In this document: piece after piece, positions 1 through 56,603 of the stretch
Numbering within the stretch: the first letter of the stretch is position 1
How the letters are laid out: the number at the start of each line of letters is the position of its first letter
Source: Oscillospiraceae bacterium
GTDB taxonomy: Bacteria > Bacillota > Clostridia > Oscillospirales > Oscillospiraceae
NCBI GenBank assembly: GCA_009777775.1
Contig: WRLE01000007.1
Coordinates: forward strand, 1-64,000
Reading direction: 5' to 3'
DNA: 64,000 nt
The notes under the pieces: generated by a model
Told to the model about the DNA's origin: nothing
Database searches by the model: none
What the model saw: only the letters and a program-made list of their open reading frames with translations
Translations under genes and position numbers: made by a program

Positions 1-453
1 ATCACCGATAAGCGGAATTGCCGGGATGAGTTTTCTTGAATAATCAAGCTCATTCAATCTGACCGCACATATTGTAAAGCCGCGTCGTTGATAGAAACGA
101 AAAGCATGGCAGTTGTCATTAGTTGTTGTCAGATAAACCCGCTTACAATATTCGTCATTAGCAATTTTAGTTACGGCATCTATTAACGCGGTACCTACTC
201 CTATATTTTGCATAATAGATTCAATAGCCATAATTTCACATTCGTTATTTGAAAAACGGTAATAGCAATACCCGAGTATTTCTCGTTCTTCCGAAAGCGC
301 AATTAGACAAGGTAAATCACGCAAATCAAACACTTCACGATGTACGGCTATTTTCATTTCATACAAAATACCTTCGCTCTCACCGCTATAAGTTTCAACT
401 ACTATCCGCTCAACTTTTTCCTTATATTCATCTGTAAGTGAAATAATCTCCAT
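1..453 (-). CDS. GNAT-family N-acetyltransferase, 3' end outside window
   Basis: I translated this from the raw sequence: an open frame of 151 codons runs from ATG at 453 to the window edge without a stop, so the C-terminus is missing. A ribosome site (AAGGGAG, plus-strand 461-467) lies 7 nt upstream and fixes the start. The fold is recognisable from the acetyl-CoA loop QNIGVGTALI (residues 82-91, the R/Q-x-x-G-x-G motif) and from HAFRFYQRRGF (116-126), the usual end-of-domain tyrosine helix. GNAT enzymes move an acetyl group from acetyl-CoA to an amine; the substrate cannot be told. It lies immediately beside a remnant of another GNAT gene. Confidence 0.8.
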   Translation of the reverse strand, partial: MEIISLTDEYKEKVERIVVETYSGESEGILYEMKIAVHREVFDLRDLPCLIALSEEREILGYCYYRFSNNECEIMAIESIMQNIGVGTALIDAVTKIANDEYCKRVYLTTTNDNCHAFRFYQRRGFTICAVRLNELDYSRKLIPAIPLIGD

Positions 454-1865: not shown

Positions 1866-1890
1866 AAGCTTACTTCTCCAATTTTTTACG

Positions 1891-1950
1891 GTTTTAGAAC
1901 TTTTTAGAACTCTTTAGAACCTTTTAGAATCTTTTAGATTCCTTTAGAAT
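1891..1950 (-). repeat. Six tandem decamers in the ATPase leader
   Basis: Six consecutive 10-bp units with the plus-strand core TTTAGA (for example GTTTTAGAAC, TTTTTAGAAC, TCTTTAGAAC) lie in perfect register between the promoter and the start codon of the ATPase. The period equals about one helical turn, so each T-tract faces the same side; this would bend the DNA or allow side-by-side protein binding. It lies within the transcribed leader. Confidence 0.85.
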
Positions 1951-1986
1951 GTGGCAATTGTACCACATTCTAAACTATCGAGTCAA
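1946..1986 (-). promoter_or_regulatory. Promoter with palindromic operator for the ATPase gene
   Basis: On the minus strand TTGACT (plus 1981-1986) and TACAAT (plus 1957-1962) are spaced by 18 bp, a good sigma-A promoter. The -10 box sits in the 8-bp loop of a perfect inverted repeat with arms AGAATGTGG (1946-1954) and CCACATTCT (1963-1971). A repressor bound there would block the polymerase directly. The left arm overlaps the last decamer of the adjacent tandem array. Confidence 0.65.
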
Positions 1987-2046
1987 CATGCGACTTTTGT
2001 GTATCTTCAGTCGCTCTTTTCTTGATGATAGAATCATACTGAACAT

Positions 2047-4451: not shown

Positions 4452-4546
4452 ACTGGTCACGAGGTATTTCGTAGGCACTAACCGTGTCATCCTGAACGAA
4501 GTGAAGAATGACACGGTTAGTGCCTACGAAATACCCAGTTACCAGT
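4452..4546. repeat. Long near-perfect inverted repeat (28-bp arms)
   Basis: Arms 4463-4490 and 4508-4535 are exact reverse complements over 28 bp (beginning GGTATTTCGTAGGCACTAAC), with a 17-nt loop CCTGAACGAAGTGAAGA. After a short internal mismatch the pairing resumes with ACTGGT (4452-4457) and ACCAGT (4541-4546). The tip, GTGTCAT-CCTGAACGAAGTGAAG, matches the hairpin family found at 21.5-21.9 kb and 46.74 kb. It lies in the 477-bp gap 4224-4700, which holds no gene. Likely a dispersed palindromic element or MITE-like sequence; no U-run makes it a clear terminator. Confidence 0.85.
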
Positions 4547-19573: not shown

Positions 19574-19658
19574 AATGTAACATATCAAAATGCAAACACA
19601 TATTGATGTATCCGTATCCTTTGCGCTATATAACATATAAACACAGTTTTAACGCCAA

Positions 19659-19697
19659 ACTCCTCACTCCTCACTCCTAACTCCTAATTCCTAATTC
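19659..19697. repeat. Heptanucleotide tandem array 3' of argS
   Basis: Five and a half 7-bp units in register (ACTCCTC x2, ACTCCTA x2, ATTCCTA, ATTC) end four bases from the argS stop codon. On the argS mRNA strand the unit reads TAGGAGT/TAGGAAT, so each unit carries a stop triplet and a Shine-Dalgarno-like core. Confidence 0.85.
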
Positions 19698-21431: not shown

Positions 21432-21921
21432 GTAGCCCGTTGTTCATTATTCATGGTTCATCGATAATTATTCATTACTCATTGTTCCCGAAGCGGCGCG
21501 TCAAGGATGCCGCGCCCTACGAATATCGTTCATTGTTCAACTGAGATTCTTCGCTCGCAAGCTCACTCAGAATGACACGGTTGGAGTACCTCGTTATTCA
21601 GTGTTTATTGGTAATTATTTGTTATTCATTACTCATGGTTTCCGAGGCGGCGCGTCAGGGATGCCTCGCCCTACGAATATTGTTTATTGTTCAACTGAGA
21701 TTCTTCGCTCGCAACTCACTCAGAATGACACGGTTGGAGTACCTCGTTATTCATTATTCATTATTCATTGTTCATGGTTCATGGTTCATGGTTCATGGTT
21801 CATGGTTTCCGAAGCGGCGCGTCAGGGATGCCGCGCCCTACGAATATCGTTCATTGTTTTACTGAGATTCTTCGCTCGCAAGCTCACTTAGAATGACACG
21901 GTTGGAGTATCCAATTATTCA
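21432..21921. repeat. Three copies of a ~150-bp composite repeat
   Basis: The 535-bp gap between argS and the DUF1934 gene holds three head-to-tail copies with cores at about 21491, 21645 and 21812. Each has a variable TTCATTA/TTCATGG heptamer run, a GC-rich hairpin (GCGGCGCGTCAGGGATGCCG with the loop TCAGGGATGC), CCTACGAATAT, and then ACTGAGATTCTTCGCTCGCA...GAATGACACGGTTGGAGTA. The third copy carries eight heptamers at 21750-21805. No gene is supported here; open frames across it are by-products of the repeat. Confidence 0.88.
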
Positions 21922-30549: not shown

Positions 30550-30691
30550 ACCTTGCGGCGCGTCAGGGATGCCGCGCCCTACGAAAGGCATTGTTTGTTT
30601 TCTGATATTTTTACTTGCTGCTAAATGCGAAATACCCAACTCCTAATTCCTAACTCATAATTCATAATTCCTAATTCCTAACTCCTAACTC
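30550..30691. repeat. GC-rich hairpin and heptamer array 3' of parC
   Basis: A hairpin core GCGGCGCGTCAGGGATGCCG (about 30556-30575), the same as in the argS repeats, is followed by seven and a half heptamers (ACTCCTA, ATTCCTA, ACTCATA, ATTCATA) at 30639-30691 that run exactly into the parC stop codon. The 226-bp gap holds no gene. Confidence 0.85.
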
Positions 30692-55321: not shown

Positions 55322-55340
55322 TTAACTCCTAAGTATAGTA

Positions 55341-55445
55341 ATTCCTAACTCCTAACTCTTAATTCCTAACTCCTAATTCCTAACTAATTCCTAATTCCTA
55401 ACTCCTAATTCCTAACTAATTCCTAATATCTAATCCATATTCCTA
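55341..55445. repeat. Heptamer array between metK and rlmB
   Basis: About 14 units of ATTCCTA/ACTCCTA in near register, with some slips (ACTAATTCCTA), run from near the rlmB start into the metK stop codon (55443-55445). It is the longest of the three arrays of this kind. Confidence 0.85.
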
Positions 55446-56603
55446 AATAAAATGCTTCAAAGTTTCCACCATATCAAGTCTTTCCCAGGAAAAGTCTTCT
55501 TCCGGTCTGCCGAAATGTCCATAGGCTGCCGTTTTGCGGTAAACTGGTTTCAATAAATCCAGCATAGCTATAATTTTCGATGGTCTAAAATCGAATATTT
55601 CACTGATAATTTCAGCAATCTTCTCATCGGGTATAATCCCTGTGCCTCTAGTATCTATGAGGACTGATACTGGTTGTGCAACGCCGATGGCATATGCAAG
55701 CTCAATTTGGCAAGCACGAGCCAATCCTGCAGCAACTATATTTTTTGCCACATAACGTGCCATATAGGCAGCACTACGATCGACTTTTGTGGGGTCTTTT
55801 CCAGAGAAGCATCCACCACCGTGGCTGGCATATCCGCCGTATGTGTCAACGATGATTTTACGCCCAGTAAGCCCAGAATCCCCCACCGGACCACCAATCA
55901 CGAAACGGCCTGTGGGATTTACATAAATCTTGGTTTCTTTCTTCATCAAATGCTCTGGTATAACTGGCTTTATAATATGTTCAATGACGCTGTCGCGCAA
56001 ATCATCGATAGAAATATCGTCATCATGCTGTGTGGATACAACAATTGTATCAACACCCACCACTCTCTTATCATCATCGTATTCAATAGTAATTTGGCTT
56101 TTTCCATCAGGTCTTATAAAGCTTAGTTCTCCGCTTTTTCTAACCTCGGCAAGCCTTCTCGTCAATGCATGGGCCATTGAAATTGGGGCTGGCATGAACT
56201 CAGGAGTCTCATCGCAGGCGAAGCCGAACATCATGCCTTGGTCTCCTGCACCCCTATCATCTGCATCGTCATAGGCACTATTGACACCCATGGCAATATC
56301 GGCACTTTGCTCATCGATTGCTGTCAGCACTGCAGTACTTTGGTACTCAAAACCATATTCTGGTTTGTTGTAACCAATCTCTTTTATTGTATTTCTAACT
56401 ATTTGCGGTATATCCACATAGGTGCTGGTGGTAATTTCTCCCATGACAAAAACCAAGCCCGTTGTCACTACAGTCTCACAGGCAACGCGGGCATTTCTGT
56501 CTCCCATCAGTATCGCATCCAAAACCGCATCTGAAATTTGATCGCAAATCTTATCAGGATGTCCTTCTGTGACAGATTCCGATGTAAATATTCTATTTGA
56601 CAT
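55443..56603 (-). CDS. metK: S-adenosylmethionine synthase
   Basis: The 386-residue protein has [20 protein letters not shown] at the N-terminus, [12 protein letters not shown] (ATP-binding loop) and [19 protein letters not shown] (P-loop), all diagnostic of MetK. It makes SAM from methionine and ATP, so it links to the metV/metF genes upstream in the window and to the many methyltransferases. A consensus promoter lies 100 bp upstream. I looked for a SAM riboswitch in the leader and saw none. Confidence 0.96.

Follow-up and report, generated by a model that had tools for sequence, protein, structure and literature searches.

The start region of a lone ATPase gene in the window (the whole stretch of 64,000 nt analysed here) is covered by six direct decamers, and phased arrays of other sequences are found in the same place upstream of most sampled relatives of this gene. 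With near-universal, differently spelled arrays, the protein may well recognise the array of its own gene and control itself through it. From these sequence patterns the ATPase probably binds its own array and cooperatively represses its own promoter, a reading to which we give a probability of about 0.7. The principle of autorepression through repeated sites is already known. A family of lone ORC/STAND-like ATPases with private arrays of one-turn spacing was not found described in the open-access PMC literature, outside of which most subscription journals lie.

The window ATPase, its promoter and its decamer array

The ATPase gene (368 codons) is on the minus strand at positions 759-1865, with the start codon at 1865. 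Upstream on the same strand are a -35 box, TTGACT (1981-1986; a consensus match only), and an extended -10 box, TACAAT (1957-1962), which is preceded by TGG; the spacer between the two boxes is 18 nt. The -10 box sits in the loop of an inverted repeat at 1943-1974, which consists of the left arm TTTAGAATGTGG (1974-1963), the 8-nt loop TACAATTG (1962-1955) and the right arm CCACATTCTAAA (1954-1943). An earlier note on this DNA had described a 9-bp inverted repeat with TACAAT in its loop; the placement of the box is correct, but the arms are perfect over 12 bp. The longest arm obtained in composition shuffles was 8 bp.

Six head-to-tail decamers with the consensus (A/G)(T/A)TCTAAAnn are found on the minus strand at 1891-1950. 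The units (1950-1941, 1940-1931, 1930-1921, 1920-1911, 1910-1901 and 1900-1891) are in exact 10-bp register, as the earlier note had it, and all six display TCTAAA on the coding strand (TTTAGA on the plus strand). The array is detected by TRF, and paired 7-mers within it number 6, against a chance mean of 1.3. It extends from about +1 to +60 relative to the predicted transcription start and ends 25 bp short of the start codon, with a GGAG ribosome-binding site (1876-1879, minus strand) between the array and the ATG. The outer 7 bp of either arm of the inverted repeat are identical to one array unit, that of the left arm being inverted. The first decamer is also the right arm, the left arm is an inverted unit, and there are thus seven units altogether.

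The inverted repeat and the triple unit have no second copy in the 2.8-Mb genome, where only matches with two or three mismatches, at chance level, were found; the triple 7-mer is found nowhere else in this genome with up to two mismatches allowed. The inverted repeat of the window copy was not seen in close relatives.

Other repeats are also present in the window. A long near-perfect inverted repeat at 4466-4532 has 28-bp arms, GGTATTTCGTAGGCACTAACCGTGTCAT and ATGACACGGTTAGTGCCTACGAAATACC, around CCTGAACGAAGTGAAGA, and is a candidate hairpin or small mobile element; its core has one further, imperfect copy in the genome, and its match to Rfam mir-8338 is far under the cut-off. Tandem heptamers TAATTCC/TAACTCC at 19650-19694, 30638-30691 and 55339-55450 form a dispersed 7-bp repeat family, one site of which lies between an RNA methyltransferase-like and a metK-like gene. 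A different tandem heptamer, TTCATGG, is at 21747-21807.

The translated aa sequence of the ATPase displays the Walker A and B motifs of STAND/AAA proteins (GARGSGKT, residues 49-56, and LLITVDE, with D152 and E153) and a GxP motif (KGFPF). Residues G49, R51, G52, G54, K55, T56 and D152 are invariant across 65 sequences, and E153 is nearly so. In the AlphaFold2 model (pLDDT 94) an AAA-type core is followed by a C-terminal winged helix with helices at 298-307 and 316-323, a recognition helix at 327-339 and a wing at 343-353; the winged-helix end supposed in the earlier note is present in this model. AAA folds were matched in a Foldseek search, the nearest structure by TM-score being 2qen and those nearest by E-value being among the Orc1/Cdc6 proteins. 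The prediction for this protein is an ATPase of the ORC/STAND-like kind that ends in a winged helix, and the window genome has a single one of this type.

By curated cut-offs the window ATPase belongs to no named Pfam family: P0001 scores 29.9 against 34 for nSTAND_NTPase5, 27.5 against 32.6 for AAA_16 and 22.7 against 33.2 for ATPase_2, and the match to the Orc/Cdc6 sequence family (PF24389) has an E-value of 0.047 and 12.9 bits against 27. The PADLOC defence models gave only weak P-loop matches to the ATPase (best 2.9e-6, mad8), and a known single-gene phage defence family was rejected on this basis.

Phased arrays upstream of related ATPases

Profile A1 was run on the phylum, on viral contigs, on the class of the Coriobacteriia relative (76/199 genomes) and on the clostridial family (26/150 genomes), and plasmids were searched with the ATPase protein (98 records). 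The sample consists of 87 members that are less than 85% identical and have upstream DNA, from Clostridia, Coriobacteriia, actinobacterial plasmids and other sources. Distant relatives of the ATPase are present on some IMG/VR contigs, and annotated phages gave no tblastn match to it.

At least four phased copies are found upstream of 61 of the 87 members, all of them among the 78 core members, and upstream of none of 285 control regions of other genes from the same loci; at least three copies are found in 73/87 members and 5/285 controls, as counted with a simple unit finder that overlooks some real arrays (that of L019 lies further upstream) and passes a few doubtful ones (L029). A periodicity score, max(lag 9..11), of at least 8 is reached by 49 members (0.563), whereas none of 2551 other windows reaches it, nor does any of 286 regions upstream of different ORFs from these loci. 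It should be noted that the members are related, and the 87 are thus not independent trials; on the tree of the 87 proteins, however, about 30 changes of spacing class are seen, and the unit sequences vary widely.

The search for the array upstream of homologous ATPases, as proposed in the earlier note, was positive. Same-genus relatives of about 66% identity (L008/L010, L011, L012) have an (A/T)(A/T)CTAAA array with 10-bp steps in the same place, and relatives of about 30% identity have differently spelled arrays there, among them AAGCAATGAT and AAGCAGTAAT, AAGTATATA pairs, and AAAGTGTGAAGGAGTATAAAA. The arrays of close relatives and of the wider family back the candidate binding array as belonging to the ATPase. 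Arrays are mostly absent from the distant GAGxxPP branch. In members of this branch (L033, L054, L026) an inverted repeat often replaces the direct array (in L033 it is TAAATTTAG-8-CTAAATTTA), which gives the impression of a palindromic operator as an alternative to the direct array.

Autocorrelation of pooled 5-mers over the 150 bp that precede the conserved N-P-F motif exceeds expectation 22-fold at lag 10, 15-fold at lags 19 and 20, 20-fold at lag 29 and 11-fold at lag 39. The peaks are at 9-10, 19-20, 29-30 and 39-40, and values at lags 11-17 and 21-27 are near or below background. Unit spacings of 9 (48 cases), 10 (194), 19 (48), 20 (18) and 29 bp (9) were counted, with almost no others, and the mean array step of about 9.7 bp is just under the B-DNA repeat. 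Thus the spacings of 9/10, 19/20 and 29 bp point to binding on the DNA helix. Simple slippage repeats were rejected as an origin of the arrays, as the units are degenerate, are gapped at multiples of a turn, and keep their place across proteins of about 25% identity.

The earlier note had also read the phased T-tracts as a sign of curved DNA. A-tracts in helical phase that curve the DNA by themselves, or a nucleoid protein that binds such a curve, would fit the units in the window, which carry three to five A residues in 10-bp phase, and a 4-base A/T tract is present in the consensus of 40 of the 62 arrays that have four or more copies. However the other 22 have no such tract (e.g., GTATATA, ATAACGA, ACTCACAGG and TTCACC), the A-tracts of at least 4 bases that a bent promoter would display throughout the family being confined to the 40. 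In addition the spacings alternate between 9, 10, 19 and 29 bp, and curvature would need no specific sequence per subfamily. As curvature is not common to the family it was rejected as the cause of the arrays, and we consider it hardly credible. In the earlier interpretation, then, the binding array owned by the ATPase is retained and curved DNA as its explanation is dropped.

Promoters of the 62 arrays of four or more copies were scored with a simple consensus, which 41 passed, leaving 21 with no recognised promoter. Relative to where the -10 box ends, the array starts between -45 and +20 in 34 of these 41; one unit often is the -10 box itself or fills the spacer between the -35 and -10 boxes. 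A role of the repeats at the RNA level, whereby repeated UUCUAAA in the leader would be bound by a protein or by the ribosome, is consistent with the window and several relatives, in which all head-to-tail units are downstream of the predicted transcription start. In many members, however, the first units are between the -35 and -10 boxes and form the -10 box, and thus are absent from the transcript, and the spacings are locked to multiples of the DNA turn. The structure of the leader transcript is no better than that of shuffles (z 0.23), and Rfam has no match on the window array. The array position and helical spacing, together with the lack of leader structure, thus indicate DNA and not RNA as the target; RNA leader control was rejected for its missing structure and the units inside promoters, and is very improbable.

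The position of the arrays also bears on activation, whereby the ATPase would act from the array on its own or another promoter upon signal binding, in the manner of the STAND regulator MalT. The ATPase has STAND-like features (weak Pfam nSTAND/NACHT matches and the GxP motif), and MalT uses phased direct sites. These are activating sites upstream of the -35 box, whereas the arrays described here are on the -10 box and downstream of it, a position from which a bound protein obstructs polymerase. Many of the promoters have good -35 and -10 boxes, and an activator is thus not obviously needed. Activation and repression would look alike in sequence, and with both sides considered activation appears quite unlikely.

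Private repeats, self-contained units and a possible mechanism

The CTAAA array is present once per genome, at the ATPase gene, in each of four genomes from the genus (that of the window and three others). Thus it serves its own gene and not a regulon; a regulon was rejected, there being no second array in the four genomes and the inverted repeat being unique. Among subfamilies the repeat sequence differs and the spacing (9/10, 19/20 and 29 bp) is unchanged. Paralogs within one genome also differ in their arrays (L011/L018 in G010, L021/L024 in G344, and L059/L060/L061 in G492).

Protein columns were ranked by their association with unit similarity, corrected for ATPase-domain identity. Columns 328, 331, 332 and 335 of the recognition helix (i, i+3, i+4, i+7), which had been noticed before testing, rank 26, 1, 24 and 8 of 330. 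They would share one face of the helix, and their link to the repeat sequence is suggestive only: ranked against all other columns, those of the recognition helix fall short of significance (p 0.08), although label permutation gives 0.002. The recognition segment has a weak effect on repeat similarity (0.065, permutation p 0.03). Similarity of the whole winged helix is no predictor of repeat similarity after the ATPase-domain correction (partial r -0.01), and covariation of the whole winged helix with the repeat sequence was rejected, as the signal is gone after correction.

The description of the gene as a lone ATPase agrees with its surroundings, since no neighbouring ORF family is common to more than 2 of the 87 loci. 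Between diverged homologous copies in unrelated surroundings the shared DNA starts just before the array or the -35 box, at about -90/-136, and ends at the stop codon, as seen in the pairs L084/L086, L049/L036, L018/L014, L013/L015 and L022/L103. Longer flanks are common to some pairs, in the Coriobacteriia group L067-L073 and in the plasmid pair L045/L042, and no terminal inverted repeats or target duplications were obvious by eye in seven pairs. Array and gene behave as one self-contained unit. L084 and L086, two copies of one unit with 85% DNA identity, have arrays that differ by two repeat units (20 bp), and array length thus varies among close relatives.

On the Arthrobacter plasmid NC_018532.1, L049 and L036 (108939-110018 and 178205-179281) are 96%-identical units with arrays in unrelated surroundings, and are a candidate pair for the study of unit movement. 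Several Coriobacteriia genomes have two family members about 2.5 kb apart on opposite strands in convergent orientation, e.g., G634:C30:59033-63777, G600:C16:25374-30118 and G688:C7:5944-10688.

An alternative is that the array nucleates an ATPase filament that acts beyond the promoter, either as initiator plus origin in the manner of ORC/ORB or Rep/iteron systems or at a segregation site, the promoter overlap being incidental. In fold the ATPase comes closest to Orc1/Cdc6 and to an archaeal ATPase (2qen); plasmids carry many of the members, and initiator genes frequently adjoin their repeats. However most sampled members sit in genome assemblies, with up to eight copies per genome, and the 87 loci have no conserved neighbour with a role in replication, partition or helicase loading. 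The spacing of about one turn is also unlike that of classical iterons, which are about 20 bp, and the arrays are tied to the -10 box. We regard this alternative as unlikely.

In the preferred reading, that of autorepression, the array would be the private operator of the adjoining ATPase. Each decamer may be bound by the C-terminal winged helix of one protomer, with a protomer every 9-10 bp. The protomers would follow one another head to tail, nearly all on the same side of the DNA, in contact through their ATPase domains; from the set of spacings a protomer step of about 9.7 bp is predicted. Bound cooperatively across the -10 box and the 60 bases transcribed first, such a row would block transcription of the ATPase gene (negative autoregulation), and in the window copy the inverted extra site would leave the -10 box flanked by two sites that face each other. 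Oligomerisation may change with the nucleotide state or upon binding of a signal, whereby the promoter opens or closes. A switch that has to remain silent before a trigger, as the earlier note suggested, stays a conjecture. The likeliest setting is a single-gene switch on horizontally acquired DNA.

Array and gene as a self-contained unit may have diverged together, the repeat with the protein, so that copies would avoid cross-reaction. A wider reading, which we put forward tentatively and hold to be rather doubtful, is that these are widespread mobile units of about 1.2 kb, each an ATPase with a fast-changing array and a private code, so that many orthogonal copies could coexist in one genome. 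Through self-recognition of its array a unit would limit itself, and might also exclude incoming copies of the same code or confer immunity to them.

If autorepression from private arrays is right, tens of natural protein-operator pairs of one architecture and differing sequences would be obtainable from sequence alone, and the winged-helix recognition code of the family would be directly testable. Orthogonal multi-site repressors would be on offer, and a common unnamed family annotated only as "ATP-binding protein" would have its first functional handle.

Comparison with known systems

The best global fold match is PABY2304 of Pyrococcus abyssi (PDB 2qen), an archaeal STAND/ATPase_2 protein, with TM-scores of 0.63/0.66. 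In both proteins an AAA-type ATPase core is followed by a winged helix, but identity over the alignment with the window ATPase is 16%. The Orc1/Cdc6 proteins, of which 2qby and 1w5t are among the best Foldseek matches, also combine an ATPase with a winged helix, and here, too, the gene adjoins repeated candidate binding sites. However the decamers are about one turn apart over a promoter, in place of longer ORBs at an origin, and the gene is a lone, multi-copy one with no replication neighbours, its match to the Pfam ORC-CDC6-like family being far under the cut-off.

RdfS-type excisionases are winged-helix proteins that oligomerise on DNA (PMC11963761), as is proposed for the ATPase; they differ in that they are small, have no ATPase domain and are tied to integrase genes.

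Iteron systems show a likeness at the level of the DNA, with head-to-tail direct repeats private to the neighbouring gene, as in the single array per genome of the four genus genomes, and a product expected to repress itself. The iteron Rep differs in that it is not an ATPase, and no origin was found here. With MalT and other STAND regulators the likeness is an ATP-dependent oligomer expected on several phased direct sites, with the difference that the sites described here cover the -10 box and the transcription start.
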